40,392 nucleotides of DNA from an uncultured Bacteroidota bacterium (GTDB taxonomy: Bacteria; Bacteroidota; Bacteroidia; AKYH767-A; JABDAW01). The notes under the pieces are model-generated. The model saw only the letters and a list, made by a program, of their open reading frames with translations, searched no databases and was not told where the DNA came from. How positions within the stretch are numbered: the first letter of the stretch is position 1; each line of letters begins with the position of its first letter. Location: positions 1 through 40,392 of the forward strand of contig CAIWCG010000033.1 in the NCBI GenBank assembly GCA_903911135.1, written 5' to 3'. Shown here piece after piece: positions 4,573 to 40,392 of this stretch. The position numbers and the translations under genes are program-made.

Positions 4573-4705
4573 GGAGCCTATGGTTTCTTCTCGTATCATG
4601 GCCAGTCCCGCTATCCGCTGTAGCCGCTGCATCCCCAAATCCGAAACAAGGCAGCGGGCTGCCGCTACTATCGGGGCTATGCTTTGACGGCAGGTTGCTT
4701 CGAAA
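4573..4705 (+). repeat. Dispersed 3'-end repeat, copy B
   Basis: Starts with GGAGCCTATGG, contains the shared core CCCGCTATCCGCTGTAGCC and ends with ATGCTTTGACGGCAGGTTGC. The inner CCGCTGC and GCAGCGG can pair as a stem. Unlike copies C and D it diverges after the TCGAAA that follows GGTTGC, and it lacks the AATT-rich lead-in. It lies directly after the tRNA terminator in the tRNA's orientation and forms an inverted pair with copy C across the 42-bp array. Confidence 0.85.
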
Positions 4706-4803
4706 CAGCTTTTAAAAATAGAATGTTCTATTCAAGGATGAAGAATTAATCAGTAGTTAAGTCGAATCGAATATTATATAAGGTGATTTTCTGATTTTTT
4801 TAT

Positions 4804-5037
4804 GCCATTCTCTTACTAGAGAATGGCTTAATCCACGCAGATTAGGCCGCTCTCTTACCAGAGGATGGCATAAACTACGCAGATTAAGCCATCCTCTTAC
4901 CAGAGAATGGCATAAACTACGCAAATTAGGCCGCTCTCTTACCAGAGAATGGCATAAACTACGCAGATTAGGCCGCTCTCTTATTAGAGAATGGCATAAA
5001 CCAGACAGATTATGCCATTCTCTAATAAGAGAATTGT
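4804..5037. repeat. 42-bp tandem array, 6 copies, of two alternating 21-bp halves
   Basis: Palindrome cores begin at 4805, 4847, 4889, 4931, 4973 and 5015, exactly 42 bases apart. Half one is of the type ATTCTCT-TACT-AGAGAAT flanked by GCC and GGC. Half two is of the type CATAAACTACGCAGATTAG. Units differ by scattered substitutions (ATTCTC, GCTCTC or ATCCTC arms). All parts of the unit are conserved, so this is not a CRISPR array. No ORF of convincing quality crosses the 4.6-5.3 kb island. Confidence 0.9.
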
Positions 5038-5076
5038 TAAAATTTTAACTTTTATAGCGTGGAAATGAAATGATAA

Positions 5077-5317
5077 CTGGAAATCTGACCTTTAATGTAG
5101 GTTATTTACATAAGCTGAAAGTCCTTTCGAGGCAACCTGCCGTCAAAGCATAGCCCCGATAGTAGCGGCAGCCCGCTGCTTGGTGTCGGAAATGGGGAGC
5201 AGCGGCTACAGCGGATAGCGGGACTGGCCATGATACGAGATGGAACCATAGGCTCCAAAAAAGAATTAGGAATTAGGAATTAAAAATTAGGAGTGGAATG
5301 GGGAGTGAGACGGGGAT
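5077..5317 (-). repeat. Dispersed 3'-end repeat, copy C (full length)
   Basis: The most complete copy. Read on the minus strand from the glycosylasparaginase stop it has a pyrimidine-rich lead, AATT tandem motifs, GGAGCCTATGG, the core, ATGCTTTGACGGCAGGTTGC, and a 60-base tail ending in GGTCAGATTTCCAG. The tail is shared with copy D, which runs to the window end. It has the same orientation as the gene it follows. Confidence 0.9.
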
Positions 5318-7918: not shown

Positions 7919-8009
7919 TGCGCCTATGTTTCTTTGCATACTAATTTTAAGCCAAATGCCAGCATTATCAATTGCCCAGAAGGAACGCTTTATTGAAAGG
8001 TTCATGCAA

Positions 8010-9005
8010 ATGAATTCTTTCGTTGTTCCAAATTCCATAAATCAAACTATGGAATTAATAAATCATATTAGGGAATTGAAAAAAGAAAAGGATGCGATAC
8101 TTCTTTCTCACTATTATATGCCGGCTGAATTACAAATTCTTGAGGAAGAAGGTGGTGTAGCTGATTTTGTTGGTGATTCTCTTGGATTAAGTTTGGAAGC
8201 CGTAAAAGCTAGTGGCAAGAACATAATATTCTGCGGAGTAAGATTTATGGCAGAAACAGCGGCTATTCTTAATCCTTCAAAAAAAGTTCTAATTCCTGAT
8301 ATGGAAGCGGGATGTTCTCTAGCCTCTGGTATAAGCGCACAAGATGTTATTGGTTTGAAACAAAAATATCCTGGAGTCCCTGTAATTGCATATATTAATA
8401 CCTATGCCGAAACCAAAGCTGAATGCGATATTATCTGTACTTCTAGAAATGCCTTGAAGATTGCCCAATCGTTCCCTAACGACCGCTTGATATTTGTTCC
8501 TGATGAGTTCATGGGAAAAAATCTCAGGGAAGTCATTTATAAGGAAACCGGAAAGGAATTGATAGTATGGAATGCCAAATGTGAAGTGCATGAACAGTTT
8601 ACAAAAACCACCATCCACCAACTGATGGAATCCAATCCGGAAGCGGAAGTGCTGGTGCATTGGGAGGTGCCTGACGAAGCGGTGAAGGAATCATTAAGCA
8701 AAGGAAAAGGCATTGTAGGCAGCACCTCTGATATCATCAGTTATGTTTCAAAAAGTGATGCTACCGAATTTATACTTGGTTCGGAATGTGACCTGGGGGC
8801 AACCTTGCGGGGTCTTTATAAAGACAAAATATTTATAACCCCTTGTGTGAAATGTCCCTACATGAAGAAAATCAATCTGCAGAATACCTTGGATGCACTG
8901 ATGGCTATCGGGACAAAGGACGAAGAAAGATACTTGGTGAAGGTGCCCGAGCCAACAAGAACCAGAGCGGAGCTGCCATTAAGGAGGATGCTCGAGTTTT
9001 CATAA
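8010..9005 (+). CDS. nadA: Quinolinate synthase A
   Basis: Condenses iminoaspartate with dihydroxyacetone phosphate to quinolinate using a [4Fe-4S] cluster, for de novo NAD synthesis. Segments typical of the family are ILLSHYYMPAELQ, VADFVGDSLGLS, CGVRFMAETAAIL, MEAGCSLASG, VIAYINTYAETKA, LIFVPDEFMGKNL, and the Cys-rich CVKCPYMKKI near the C-terminus. The frame is open from an ATG at 7926, but the residues before 8010 do not look like NadA. Starting at 8010 gives 331 residues, close to family length, with GAAAGG upstream. A leaderless start at 7926 cannot be excluded. nadB follows after 3 bases. Confidence 0.95.
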   Translation: MNSFVVPNSINQTMELINHIRELKKEKDAILLSHYYMPAELQILEEEGGVADFVGDSLGLSLEAVKASGKNIIFCGVRFMAETAAILNPSKKVLIPDMEAGCSLASGISAQDVIGLKQKYPGVPVIAYINTYAETKAECDIICTSRNALKIAQSFPNDRLIFVPDEFMGKNLREVIYKETGKELIVWNAKCEVHEQFTKTTIHQLMESNPEAEVLVHWEVPDEAVKESLSKGKGIVGSTSDIISYVSKSDATEFILGSECDLGATLRGLYKDKIFITPCVKCPYMKKINLQNTLDALMAIGTKDEERYLVKVPEPTRTRAELPLRRMLEFS

Positions 9006-9008
9006 ACA

Positions 9009-10577
9009 ATGGGTGATAAACAGCAATTTGATTATTTGGTTATTGGGAGCGGTATCGCCGGACTCTTCTTTGCGCTGAAGGCGGCTAAGAATGGCAAGGT
9101 GGCAATCATTACCAAAAAGAACCAAAGTGAATCGAATACCAACTATGCTCAAGGGGGTATAGCTGCTGTTATGGATGTTCATGATACATTTGAAGGGCAC
9201 ATCATGGATACCCTGATAGCTGGCGATGGTTTATGCAATGAAAAGGCCGTGGAAATGATGGTCAAGGATGCTCCTGAATGCATCAACGAACTTATCGGTA
9301 TCGGGGTTGATTTTACAAAGGAAAACAACGGCGAGCTTGCTTTAGGACGTGAAGGTGGACATCATGCCAACCGCGTTGTTCATGCAAAGGACCTGACGGG
9401 TAGGGAGATAGAGAGAGCCTTGATAGCTGCCGTGAAAAAAGAGCCGAACATCTCGATATTTGAAAACCATCTTGCCATAGATTTGATAATGGAAAAGGAT
9501 GAAAAGACCAACGAGGACAAATGTTTTGGGGCGTATGTGTTCGATAGGAAAGAGGAGGTGGAAAAAGCGTTCCTTGCCAAGGTAGTTTTGCTGTGTGCGG
9601 GCGGAACGGGTAGGATATATCTCCACACTACCAATCCGGACATAGCCACGGGCGACGGCATTGCCATGGCCTATAGGGCTGGGGCCAAACTTGCTAATCT
9701 CGAGTTCGTGCAATTTCATCCTACCACCCTGTTTCATCCCGATGGCCACAGCTTTCTTATCAGCGAAGCCCTCCGTGGTTTCGGGGGAGTGCTTAAATTG
9801 AAAAACGGACAGGAGTTTATGCCATGCTACCACGAAATGGGTTCTTTGGCGCCAAGGGATATTGTAGCTAGGGCGATAGAAACCGAACTCAAGATTACCG
9901 GCGATGAATGCGTTTACCTCGACGTTACCCATCTTGATGCCGAAAAGGTGAAGGAGGAGTTCCCGACGATATACAACCAGTGCCTTTCGCTGGGGATAGA
10001 CATCACGAAACAGATGATTCCCGTGGTTCCTGCGGCGCATTACATGTGTGGTGGAGTGGTGACCGACCTGAATGCCCAGACTACCATCCAGGGGCTGTAT
10101 GCCTGCGGAGAAACTGCCTGCACTGGCGTACATGGTGCCAACAGGCTCGCCAGCAATTCGCTGCTGGAGGCGCTTGTGTTTGCAAAACGCGCCGTATTGG
10201 ATTCGGCCAAGAACCTTGATGCCATAAAGATTCCGAAGGATGATATTTATGACCAACCCCATGGCACCAGAGGCAACGGACTGACGGTGAGCTACGAAAA
10301 AGAAAGGCTTATCATTCAAAAAGCGATGAGCGGATACGTAGGAATATCACGCAATAACGCCGGACTTGCCAAGGCCATGACGATAATAGAGGAACTTATC
10401 GACAAGATAGAGACGCTCTACTTCTATTCGCCGCTCGATGCCAATTTGATAGAGCTTAGAAACATGGCCACGGTGGCCTATCTGGTCATCAGTGCGGCAG
10501 CGGCAAGGAAAGAAAGCCGCGGGCTGCACTATAATACCGACTTTCCGAACAAGATTAATTACGCCCCCATCAAGTAA
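9009..10577 (+). CDS. nadB: L-aspartate oxidase
   Basis: A flavoprotein that oxidises L-aspartate to iminoaspartate, the unstable substrate passed to NadA. The 522 residues match the family. The N-terminal FAD-binding motif is DYLVIGSGIAGLFFALKAA, with the second FAD contact in SNTNYAQGGIAAV. Active-site segments are REGGHHANRVVHAKD, LEFVQFHPTTL and MIPVVPAAHYMCGGV, and the C-terminal FAD contact is GANRLASNSLLEALVFAKRA. It begins 3 bases after nadA, so the pair forms a two-gene operon. Confidence 0.97.
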   Translation: MGDKQQFDYLVIGSGIAGLFFALKAAKNGKVAIITKKNQSESNTNYAQGGIAAVMDVHDTFEGHIMDTLIAGDGLCNEKAVEMMVKDAPECINELIGIGVDFTKENNGELALGREGGHHANRVVHAKDLTGREIERALIAAVKKEPNISIFENHLAIDLIMEKDEKTNEDKCFGAYVFDRKEEVEKAFLAKVVLLCAGGTGRIYLHTTNPDIATGDGIAMAYRAGAKLANLEFVQFHPTTLFHPDGHSFLISEALRGFGGVLKLKNGQEFMPCYHEMGSLAPRDIVARAIETELKITGDECVYLDVTHLDAEKVKEEFPTIYNQCLSLGIDITKQMIPVVPAAHYMCGGVVTDLNAQTTIQGLYACGETACTGVHGANRLASNSLLEALVFAKRAVLDSAKNLDAIKIPKDDIYDQPHGTRGNGLTVSYEKERLIIQKAMSGYVGISRNNAGLAKAMTIIEELIDKIETLYFYSPLDANLIELRNMATVAYLVISAAAARKESRGLHYNTDFPNKINYAPIK

Positions 10578-10734: not shown

Positions 10735-10901
10735 CAGCCGATGATTTACAACAATCAAAATATTTCAGTCTTACGGCTCCAGGAATTCCCCAGCAAAGGA
10801 TTTCTCCAGTTATTGGCAACTCGTTCGAGTTCTGATGCGGAAAATCTTAGCTTATGGAAATCTCAATAATCATCAATAAAAATACCTCTTTTAATAATCT
10901 C

Positions 10902-10913
10902 ATCATTAATGAT
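10902..10913. repeat. 12-bp palindrome ATCATTAATGAT, copy 1 of 3
   Basis: The same perfect palindrome recurs at 11973-11984 and 12129-12140. The third copy lies just downstream of the paaJ -7 box, which suggests a binding site. Confidence 0.4.
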
Positions 10914-10989
10914 CTTAATGGTAATAAGATTATTGCTGATGATGCCCTGAATACTCCAATTCACGCTGTAGAGAGTGGTTTTGCCTCCA

Positions 10990-11199
10990 CCGTTAATGAA
11001 AACGGAACCACCGTTAATGAAAACGGAACCACCACTTTCGAAAGTGGCACCGCCATTTTTGCTTTTGGCGCCACCATTTTCAATAATCACGCCGCCATTT
11101 TCGCTTTTGGTGCTGCCATTTTCACTTTTGACGCCGCCATTTTAACTAATGGCTCTACCGTTTTTAAAAACGGTGGCTCCGTTTTTGAAAACGGAAGGC
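10990..11199. repeat. 21-bp palindromic tandem array, 10 units with changing arms
   Basis: Units begin at 10990 and every 21 bases to 11179. Each has a 5-base arm, 6-base loop, 5-base arm and 5-base spacer. Perfect arm pairs are CCGTT/AACGG (units 1, 2, 9, 10), CCACT/AGTGG (unit 3) and CCATT/AATGG (unit 8). Units 4-7 keep the left arm CCATT but have a poor right arm. Both strands have open frames through the array that would give 7-residue repeats. I treat those as by-products of the 21-base period. Confidence 0.9.
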
Positions 11200-11303
11200 C
11201 GAAATATGGTTTTAATGTCATCGGAAGGATGGCTGAATGGCTGATTTCATCTTACAAATTTCCAATTTCTAAAATAAATATAAACAATTAAAATTAAAAA
11301 ATC

Positions 11304-11963
11304 ATGCCAGACATTCCAAGGGCTATTCCCGAAAAAAACGGCTACTACAATGTGGTCGTTCCCTACTTCCTGGTCGTAGCGAATCAGACTCGCTGGGGCA
11401 TTACAAACGCGAAACCATTGGCGCTGAACGAAGAATTCGGTGCCAATTGGGAACCTAACTATCTTTCTTGGTCGAACGACTCCGTTAAGAATCACTTGAC
11501 CATTGTAAACATTGATGATTTTGCCGTCAGTATGGACGATAAGATCAGATCCATCTGCGAAGATATTCCTTACTCCAAGCTATCATCTGCCGATAAATTG
11601 ACTTTGTTGATTGCTGACAAACCTACCAGTTATGGCAAAATCCACGCACAGTTGGAAGGCCCTAAAATGGACGTTAAAAAACAGGTTCATGGATTGACTG
11701 AAATGTATCTTCAGAATCCATTGACGCCTGATTCCACTGCCATGCCGAAAGGCAATATGGCTGTGGTGCTGTCTTATAAAGGCCTTGCCGGATTGTTGGA
11801 TAAAGACATCGCTTGGGGATTTGATGGCATAGCTGCCGGAAATATCTACAAGATAGCTCATCTTCCTGCTGATGATGGCAAAACTCTGTACACCAAAAGC
11901 CTGTATTTTCATGGCGTAGAGCTTGGAAATTGTGGCGTTATGTGCAGTTCCATCATGATTTAA
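11304..11963 (+). CDS. Hypothetical protein downstream of the 21-bp array
   Basis: I do not recognise this 219-residue protein. No signal peptide or membrane segment is visible. It has a Trp/Tyr-rich N-terminal part (FLVVANQTRWGITNAKPLAL) and a helical, charged middle. From about residue 110 the C-terminal part reads like a beta-sandwich (QLEGPKMDVKKQVHGLTEM, MAVVLSYKG, TLYTKSLYFHGVELGNCG). It is flanked by ATCATTAATGAT palindromes on both sides and has a convergent-style terminator after it. The start is the only ATG that includes the conserved-looking N-terminus. Confidence 0.72.
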   Translation: MPDIPRAIPEKNGYYNVVVPYFLVVANQTRWGITNAKPLALNEEFGANWEPNYLSWSNDSVKNHLTIVNIDDFAVSMDDKIRSICEDIPYSKLSSADKLTLLIADKPTSYGKIHAQLEGPKMDVKKQVHGLTEMYLQNPLTPDSTAMPKGNMAVVLSYKGLAGLLDKDIAWGFDGIAAGNIYKIAHLPADDGKTLYTKSLYFHGVELGNCGVMCSSIMI

Positions 11964-17645: not shown

Positions 17646-17916
17646 ATTTTTATTTTTTTATTTTTTTTTGAACATTGCAAAGAAACGAAAAAATATCAAC
17701 TCCAACATTTTTATGACTAAAACGGATAATAATTTTATATCGATTTGAAAAATGTGGGTAAAAAGATGGAATTATTTTGCTTAAATTAACACTGGCTTTT
17801 TTCAAAAGTGAAATGGGTGTTTGTGGAAATAAAAATGTTGAATCTGATGGTTAAAAGAGTGAAAATGGGGGTGGAAATAGTCTCAAAAAGTTCAAAATGA
17901 CCTGTTTTAAATGTTG

Positions 17917-18127
17917 TTCGATGCGATTTGATTGTTCTTAGATTTGATTTAAAGGTCGTTCGATGCCATGTGATTGTTCTTAGAATTGACTTGAAGATGC
18001 TTGGATAAGACTTGAAGGTGGTTCGATAAGATATGGTTTTTGAAAAGAAGGCATTTGATGGTGCTTCGATGAGGTTTAAGGATGGTTAGATTCGATTTGA
18101 TGAGGCTTCGATGCGACTTGGTTTCGA
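17917..18127. repeat. 21-bp tandem array, about 10 units (TTCGAT/TTAGAT type)
   Basis: TTCGAT or TTAGAT recurs at 17917, 17938, 17959, 17980, 18001 (TTGGAT), 18022, 18065, 18086 and 18107. The unit at 18043 is decayed and there is one 22-base step. The two forms mostly alternate, giving a 42-base superperiod like the array at 4804. Units carry GAT every 5-6 bases and are not clearly palindromic, so this array has the shared period but not the hairpins. Confidence 0.75.
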
Positions 18128-18431: not shown

Positions 18432-18544
18432 AATAACTCAAAATGTCTCACCCAGCTTTTTTTATATGGAACGAATAACAATTAAAATATAGGAGGAAGC
18501 CGAAAATCCTTGATCAGAGTAGGCAAAATAAAATAATTAAATAA

Positions 18545-29541: not shown

Positions 29542-29593
29542 AGTTTTTTGGCCGCCGAGTGCTACAAAAGAGCAAACGAGTGAAGTTTTAACG

Positions 29594-29846
29594 AAACTTC
29601 AAGGAGTTTGCCCGAAACTTCAAGGAGTTTATCCGAAACTTCAAGGAGTTTACCCGAAACTTCAAGGAGTTTGCCCGAAACTTCAAGGAGTTTACCCGAA
29701 ACTTCAAGGAGTTTGCCCGAAACTTCAAGGAGTTTGCCCAAAACTTCAAGGAGTTTGCCCGAAACTTCAAGGAGTTTGCCCGAAACTTCAAGGAGTTTGC
29801 CCGAAACTTCAAGGAGTTTGCCCAAAACTTCAAGGAGTTGCGAGAT
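29594..29846. repeat. 21-bp palindromic tandem array, 12 units
   Basis: CAAGGAGTT recurs at 29600 and every 21 bases to 29831 with no indel. The unit has arms AAACT and AGTTT around TCAAGG, with a 5-base spacer varying among GCCCG, ATCCG, ACCCG and GCCCA. The arms are invariant except in the last unit. Open frames on both strands encode 7-residue repeats (ETSRSLP on plus); these are products of the period, not evidence for a protein. Confidence 0.95.
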
Positions 29847-30152
29847 TTAATGCTTGATAGGTCATGAATATCCATTATCAAGGAATCATTTATCATTATC
29901 AAGACCCGTTTTGTAGTCTTCCCTCTCAAAATATCAATGAAAAATTTGCCTGAAAACGTCTAAAAATATTTTCTTGGAGATATTTTTCTAAAAAATGGTC
30001 AAGTTATTCATGAAAAAATAATTTTATTTATTGGAGGCATATTTCATTGAACGTGGCGGCCTGTATAACAAAACCATGATTTCATTGGATTGGTTTTTCA
30101 AATAAAATAATTTTATTTGAGTTTTATTTGGTACTTATCCATTTGGATTGTG
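29847..30152. other. Non-coding stretch between the array and the next gene
   Basis: AT-rich. The only structure seen is the word AATAATTTTATTT at about 30015 and again at about 30106, the second within a near-perfect palindrome of AAATAAAAT and ATTTTATTT. Confidence 0.4.
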
Positions 30153-36177: not shown

Positions 36178-36847
36178 TGCAATTATCAATAAATAAATAA
36201 TAGTGATATTCATAAGGAATAAGTTTCCTATGCGATGTCCCTTATATATATTGTATCCAAATACTTGGTTCTCTTCCATTGAAAAACAAGAAAAATCCAA
36301 GTTTCCTATTAGTTGCCACATGTTCAATATTTCTTATAAAACATACCACCTAAGCCAATTTCCAAGGAGGCTTTTGAGATTTGGAAGAAAAAATCGCCAT
36401 TTGGTGTCATTCCTTCTAGGATATAGCGTCGCCAATACCTTGGCGGTGCATATCCCAAGAGGAAATAGCGTCGCCAAGACCTTGGCAGTGTCTATCCTAA
36501 GAAGAAATGCCATCGCCAAGGCCTTTTTGGTGATTATACCAAAAGGAAAATGCATCGCCAAGACTTTTGGGGAATGATTTCATTTATTAATGCCTTCAAA
36601 ACAAAATTGCTTTCCCATTTCAAGATTTAGTGGTTTAAGATTTACAATTCCTATTTCATTGTAGATGTTCATATAATTGCTTTGCGTCTGGCAAGCTATC
36701 AAAAGAACAATAGCATCATCGTCATTAAAGGGGAAAATATTAGTATTTGAGAAGGCCTTTGGAGCATTCATAATGGCTGCGATTTTTATATTTCAATTTA
36801 CAATTGTATATTCGCACCCTTAAATATTAATAATATACAAGAAAACT
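36178..36847. other. Intergenic stretch between the CoA-binding gene and the isomerase gene
   Basis: Holds the 42-bp array (36394-36575). A 63-codon minus-strand frame (36580-36771) has no clear promoter or homology. The part before the array has only AGGAATAAGTTTCCT-like palindromic words. A TATATTCG box at 36808 may serve the isomerase gene. Confidence 0.4.
36394..36575. repeat. 42-bp tandem array of two alternating 21-bp halves, about 4.5 units
   Basis: TCGCCA recurs at 36394, 36429, 36471, 36513 and 36555. The first step is 35 (a 7-base loss), the others exactly 42. Half one is palindromic: CGCCAA-TACC-TTGGCG, CGCCAA-GACC-TTGGCA, CCAAGGCCTTTTTGG. Half two is weaker (ATTCC...GGATAT, TATCC...GGAAATA). 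Confidence 0.85.
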
Positions 36848-40158: not shown

Positions 40159-40392
40159 CTTGTAGCCTCCCACTCCGCCTAATTCCTAATTTTTAATTCC
40201 TAATTTTTTTTTTGGAGCCTATGTGTTCTACTCGTCCCATCTTCGTCCCGCTATCCGCTGTAGCCGCTGCTCCCCATTACCGATACAAAGCTGCGGTCTG
40301 CCGCTACTATCGGGGCTATGCTTTGACGGCAGGTTGCCTCGAAAGGACTTTCAGCTTATGTAAATAACCTACATTAAAGGTCAGATTTCCAG
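40159..40392 (+). repeat. Dispersed 3'-end repeat, copy D (cut by window end)
   Basis: The same order as copy C: pyrimidine-rich lead directly after the stop, AATT tandem, T run, GGAGCCTATG, core, ATGCTTTGACGGCAGGTTGC, then the tail ending GGTCAGATTTCCAG at the last base. It matches 5077-5317 along its length and has the same orientation as the desaturase gene. Confidence 0.9.

Follow-up and report, generated by a model that had tools for sequence, protein, structure and literature searches.

Bacterial intergenic repeats are normally recognised by their shared sequence. The locus described here is a tandem array of 21-bp units with short palindromes, in which the two palindrome arms show matched changes. 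Such matched changes can be read as selection for the hairpin or as the product of template switching during DNA replication. The array lies in a stretch of 40,392 nucleotides, here called the window, from the genome of an uncultured Bacteroidota bacterium (GCA_903911135.1, contig CAIWCG010000033.1). The reading that we prefer, at a probability of roughly 0.55, is that the array belongs to a genus-wide class of intergenic minisatellites in strict 21-bp register, produced by slippage or exchange together with template switching and subject to a separate constraint on the register.

The ten-unit array and its paralogue

The array occupies positions 10990..11199 and consists of ten exact 21-mers without indels, each laid out as arm, loop, arm and spacer of 5, 6, 5 and 5 bp, respectively. 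Because it is dyad-symmetric, it is strand-neutral, and no strand is assigned to it, to its parts or to the other arrays of the window. The fixed loop and spacer lengths and the matched arm changes described in an earlier note on this DNA are confirmed exactly. The arms are perfect 5-bp matches in units 1-3 (10990..11052; CCGTT/AACGG twice, then CCACT/AGTGG) and in units 8-10 (11137..11199; CCATT/AATGG, then CCGTT/AACGG twice), with CCGTT/AACGG common to units 1, 2, 9 and 10. Units 4-7 (11053..11136) retain the left arm CCATT next to degraded right arms, TTTGG, AATCA, TTTGG and TTTGA, which form 3, 3, 3 and 2 pairs. Perfect 5-bp arms at one register thus occur in 6 of the 10 units, compared with 0.5 on average and never more than 2 in 300 trials with permuted columns, and the pairing of left arms with their own right arms reaches 41 of 50, against 34.7 +/- 1.8 after permutation (p = 0.0005). 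Circular shifts of the arms lower the pairing smoothly (41, 38, 35, 34, 32, 31 and so on), because the centre is made up of CCATT units and the two ends of CCGTT units. Given this block layout, the covariation within the array amounts to some two or three events rather than ten.

A DNA search of the whole genome of the bacterium (G000) with this array found only two other related loci, and the same search in 40 relatives found no related locus. A paralogous array, C78:21721-21929, shares with it about 45 bp of similar upstream flank. In a gap-free alignment of the two arrays, 10 arm differences are one-sided and none is compensated; hand realignment that allows for gain and loss of units, by which the arrays appear to differ, leaves about 3 one-sided differences and again no compensated one. 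Independent variation of the arms in homologous arrays would, by the earlier note, speak against its reading; on this small scale, it is seen. The note had also suggested that units 4-7 may show decay or a different state: the right arms there are indeed degraded, but the paralogue has the same degraded middle, which is therefore older than the duplication rather than a product of recent decay. Furthermore, the two arrays are related by a loop inversion. The 12-bp core ATTTTCAATAAT of unit 5 (11076..11087) recurs, exactly reverse-complemented to ATTATTGAAAAT, in the sixth unit of the paralogue, and the tail AATCACGCC is carried, besides unit 5, only by that same unit of the paralogue.

The array is flanked by a nadB-like gene (9009-10577) and an open frame (11304-11963) that has no Pfam match. 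The former is part of a nadA-nadB-like pair (7926-10577), and a protein search of G001 and G002, two further genomes of the genus, gave no close match to the nadB-like product. A further open frame of 145 amino acids runs across the array itself (10854..11291, + strand), with heptads such as TVFKNGG, and stop-free frames are slightly in excess in array units, both of which would fit a gene for a heptad-repeat protein. The pattern of change is not that of a gene, however: differences from the paralogue fall on the three codon positions 17, 16 and 13 times, without bias, and column variability has less period-3 power than the null, with p<0.05 in 1.1% of arrays (n=188). The paralogue also has upstream in-frame stops, and all Pfam matches of the frame are sub-threshold. 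We judge the frame to be non-coding and consider a coding role of the array highly improbable.

A genus-wide class in strict 21-bp register

Further arrays of the window were located with Tandem Repeats Finder. The array at 4778..5060 belongs to the same class and has a 42-bp period, each 21-bp half with its own dyad; the one at 17879..18036 has a 21/42-bp period and a weak dyad; the one at 29555..29867 comprises about 12 near-identical 21-bp units with the imperfect dyad AAACTTCAAGGAGTTT; and the one at 36389..36577 has a 42-bp period and the core CGCCAAGACCTTGGCG. Beyond the window, lag scans covered 520 kb of G000, with 69 (lag 21) and 80 (lag 42) regions, and 782 kb of G001, where the corresponding counts are 145 and 165. 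At lags other than multiples of 21, the two scans mostly gave 0-3 regions, and up to 7 at near-multiples; periods 20 and 22 are nearly absent, and the periods of the arrays are almost exclusively 21, 42 and higher multiples of 21.

In the same two samples, the density is 160-210 arrays per Mb, which extrapolates to roughly 600-800 arrays per genome, with a median length of about 250 bp. The estimate for G001 is perhaps a little too high, since 20 of the 38 contig left ends in that genome fall in 21-bp arrays, although these make up 5% of the sequence; its assembly breaks at arrays, possibly through length variation in the population. The arrays account for 22% and 31% of intergenic DNA, shares that are approximate given that genes were called by a simple ORF-based method, and, whatever the gene orientation, they occupy about half or more of those gene gaps that reach 150 bp.

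Comparison by eye of the consensus units of 115 arrays showed that unit sequences are mostly unrelated between loci. Hundreds of unrelated loci share a length quantum and a symmetry, and sequence-based repeat finders would not group them. We found no description of such a class in the open-access literature, which is weak evidence of its novelty. Neighbouring units are 0.83 identical in the interior of arrays and 0.70-0.73 at their ends; as tandem units of 10-100 bp located between genes, with a homogenised interior, these arrays are intergenic minisatellites. An arrangement in mirror order at the scale of whole arrays was set aside, being confounded by the degenerate array ends.

The third genome of the genus, G002, also carries 21-bp arrays. 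They were not seen in small samples of 17 genomes from other genera. In G003, from another genus of the same family, about 70 kb contain heptamer arrays and no clear 21-bp class, and smaller samples from elsewhere in the order show no such class. There is one lag-21/42 match in G007, and two 21-bp matches in a Peribacteria contig (L106) were discarded because they look like coding repeats. A comparison of array synteny between G000 and G001 yielded only 82 reciprocal best hits with a median identity of 53% and 19 syntenic pairs, all of them without arrays, and hence no informative gap.

Dyad symmetry and paired changes

Among the 188 arrays of period 21, 54 are dyad-rich, with complementarity in 7 or more of 10 column pairs, compared with about 16 expected under column permutation of the same set (slightly different trimming gives 52); about half of the arrays have no clear dyad. 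Of the 40 period-42 arrays, whose halves are unrelated (lag-21 identity 0.27), 21 are symmetric at p<0.05 and 14 carry dyads at two axes 21 bp apart, also at p<0.05. Neither dyad axis dominates in dyad-rich arrays, where column variability is lowest in the arms (0.16) and highest at both axis centres (0.23-0.24), and the 10.5-bp harmonic is raised in the spectrum of column variability.

An initial test of covariation, in which own-arm pairing (0.513) fell below cross-unit pairing (0.539), was biased because the axis had been chosen by cross-unit pairing; it was replaced by a control that uses sham column pairs of equal consensus complementarity, with confidence intervals bootstrapped over arrays. 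By this standard, covariation is real in dyad-rich arrays: double changes, in which both columns of a pair depart from the consensus, are complementary in 0.55 of cases in paired columns against 0.35 in sham columns, a rate ratio of 2.2 (95% CI 1.8-2.6), in counts of units rather than independent events. In a distance test on all arrays, the excess of pairing is of much the same size at 0-21, 21-42 and 42-63 bp; no hairpin-specific covariation therefore appears in the overall average, and the effect is confined to the dyad-rich class. The earlier note had described compensatory arm change and asked whether arms covary across many arrays. Both hold for the dyad-rich class; in the all-array average, however, arms covary no more within units than between neighbouring ones, and the ten-unit array contributes only its two or three events. 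One-sided arm changes in dyad-rich arrays outnumber compensated ones by about 8 to 1 (1935 against 235).

If the arrays were transcribed, the hairpins could act in RNA, as terminators, mRNA stabilisers or a small RNA. The array folds better as RNA than its shuffles do (z = -7.2), although folding as DNA is also favourable for palindromic repeats (z = -4.6). Arrays are in mild excess between convergent genes, with 44 arrays to 63 gaps of at least 150 bp, against 38 arrays to 79 such gaps between divergent genes; yet all gene orientations are represented, divergent genes often have an array between them, dyads are of much the same strength whatever the orientation of the genes, and no strand skew follows transcription. 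One-sided changes of the G.T type on the transcribed strand are hardly above control (230:161 against 1563:1283), and no Rfam family reaches its gathering threshold within the array. A role of the arrays as RNA hairpins appears decidedly unlikely.

In-register inversions and probable template switching

Selection for pairing does not predict that unpaired columns invert in register, but template switching does. In dyad-rich arrays, unpaired columns take the inverted state in 0.35 of double changes against 0.13 (rate ratio 3.3, CI 2.6-4.2), and in mid-dyad arrays, in 21% against 12% of double changes (about 1.9 times the control). Exact in-register inverted 10/11-mers, for example the pair GTCCTTAGAC/GTCTAAGGAC, are present in 21 of 188 arrays, compared with 0.4 expected with permuted columns. 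We infer that a mutational source has left its mark on these arrays.

Template switching has been reported to homogenise arms and invert spacers (PMC8604942), and hairpins have been reported to be created and maintained via the compensatory changes that result from it (PMC8794818). The arrays display these hallmarks, namely, arm homogenisation, seen as compensatory changes above control, and inversion of the loop between the arms. The likeness to quasi-palindrome template-switch mutation covers arm homogenisation, loop inversion and compensatory changes (PMC8604942, PMC8794818); unlike the arrays, however, the latter is a mutational process that defines no repeat family and sets no 21-bp period. 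The matched arm changes resemble copying flips at hairpins at least as much as selection for the hairpin, and recombination that inverts a short segment would produce loop flips identical to those of template switching. Selection may be acting on top of the mutational source. As for the view of the earlier note that the hairpin or dyad itself is kept, the dyad is real, whereas its selective upkeep is not established, considering the preponderance of one-sided changes and the in-register loop inversions. The arrays provide a large natural data set on a disputed point, whether matched arm changes reflect selection or template switching, and in-register inversion of unpaired loop columns tells the two apart more clearly than do counts of compensatory changes alone.

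Possible origins of the register

Twenty-one bp correspond to two turns of B-DNA. Under our preferred reading, slippage or unequal exchange would spread and homogenise the units, and template switching by DNA polymerase, or else short inversion, at hairpins would copy one arm onto the other and flip the loops, such that palindromes and 'compensatory' arm changes could arise without selection on the hairpin. The exact multiples of 21 would be kept by a further factor, for which the likeliest candidates are a two-helical-turn constraint and a 21-bp ruler within the machinery that generates the arrays; template switching and slippage alone do not give a fixed 21-bp period, which counts against this reading. 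So does the lower variability of the arms relative to the axis centres, which selection would also give, and the finding that spacer inversions in yeast needed arms of over 9 bp (PMC8604942), whereas the inner arms at the inverted core of the ten-unit array are 3 bp long.

Alternatively, the register could be under selection as a DNA lattice, with dyads that recur every two helical turns and so face the same side of the helix. A protein acting as a dimer or polymer would bind the array by recognising hairpins or the shape of the dyads, not sequence, and would serve nucleoid organisation or insulation between genes. The near absence of periods 20 and 22, the paired axes 21 bp apart in 14 of the 40 period-42 arrays, the low variability of the arms along with the raised 10.5-bp harmonic, and the occupation of about half or more of the longer gaps whatever their orientation are all consistent with such a lattice. 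However, there is no common sequence to recognise, about half of the arrays lack a clear dyad, and A/T phasing at 10.5 bp was looked for in the arrays and is absent; overall, selection for a lattice seems rather doubtful. It is possible, and we suggest this tentatively, that a system specific to the genus, equipped with a 21-bp ruler or a two-turn protein lattice of its own, makes or maintains hundreds of dyad arrays of arbitrary sequence, a fifth to a third of intergenic DNA, in which register and symmetry are inherited but sequence is not.

Relation to known repeats and neighbouring elements

The BrickBuilt MITE-minisatellite of Porphyromonas gingivalis has a 23-nt unit of one shared sequence, 19 copies, and a leader and tail with terminal inverted repeats (PMC4596501). 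In common with the arrays, it consists of imperfect intergenic tandem units of about 20 bp dispersed over a Bacteroidota genome (PMC4596501). In contrast, the arrays have a 21-bp period, number in the hundreds and have unrelated units: only two other related loci were found in the same genome, the 115 consensus units are mostly unrelated, and no common flank and no conserved leader or tail with terminal inverted repeats was found. A BrickBuilt-like mobile element with an internal minisatellite, carried around by conserved flanks, would nonetheless account for the similar upstream flank of the paralogue and for the position of many G000 arrays between inverted copies of a dispersed repeat. That repeat is Rfam Flavo-1, of which no copy was detected in G001 and G002, genomes that still have arrays; it is absent beside the ten-unit array, and its orientation mostly follows gene 3' ends. 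Flavo-1 was rejected as a terminal inverted repeat of the arrays. Moreover, most arrays do not share units, and we regard mobility of this kind as unlikely.

REPs resemble the arrays as small intergenic palindromes in high number but share genome-wide sequence tags and form no strict tandem arrays (PMC3733652); here, period and dyad are the only common features, and no common sequence tag was found among the palindromes. The heptanucleotide TAACTGA repeats of Beggiatoaceae are likewise abundant short intergenic tandem repeats in one lineage, but with 7-bp units (PMC4679880), of which the 21-bp units show no residue (lag-7 identity 0.245, null 0.254). CRISPR arrays also consist of regular tandem units, with repeats that are sometimes palindromic; in the arrays described here, no unique spacers separate the repeats, the units abut, and what recurs is the full 21-bp unit.

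Heptanucleotide arrays (e.g., ACCTAAT, CAATTAA) replace the 21-bp arrays in relatives outside the genus, at 4542-11860 of contig L211 (G011) and at 2118 of L070 and 8384 of L071 (both G003). Flavo-1 (RF01705), an Rfam sRNA motif, is strongly expanded in G000, with at least 136 matches at E<=0.001, including copies in the window at 4600-4682 (-), 5148-5229 (+) and 40240-40321 (-); its copies often bracket 21-bp arrays as inverted pairs, most of them turned towards gene 3' ends. G001 has a different dispersed repeat, of about 200 bp, in the same position and orientation beside arrays (e.g., C3 3794-4029). Finally, a DUF805b cis-regulatory RNA (RF02914) is located at 18490-18525 (+) of the window, just downstream of the array at 17879-18036.
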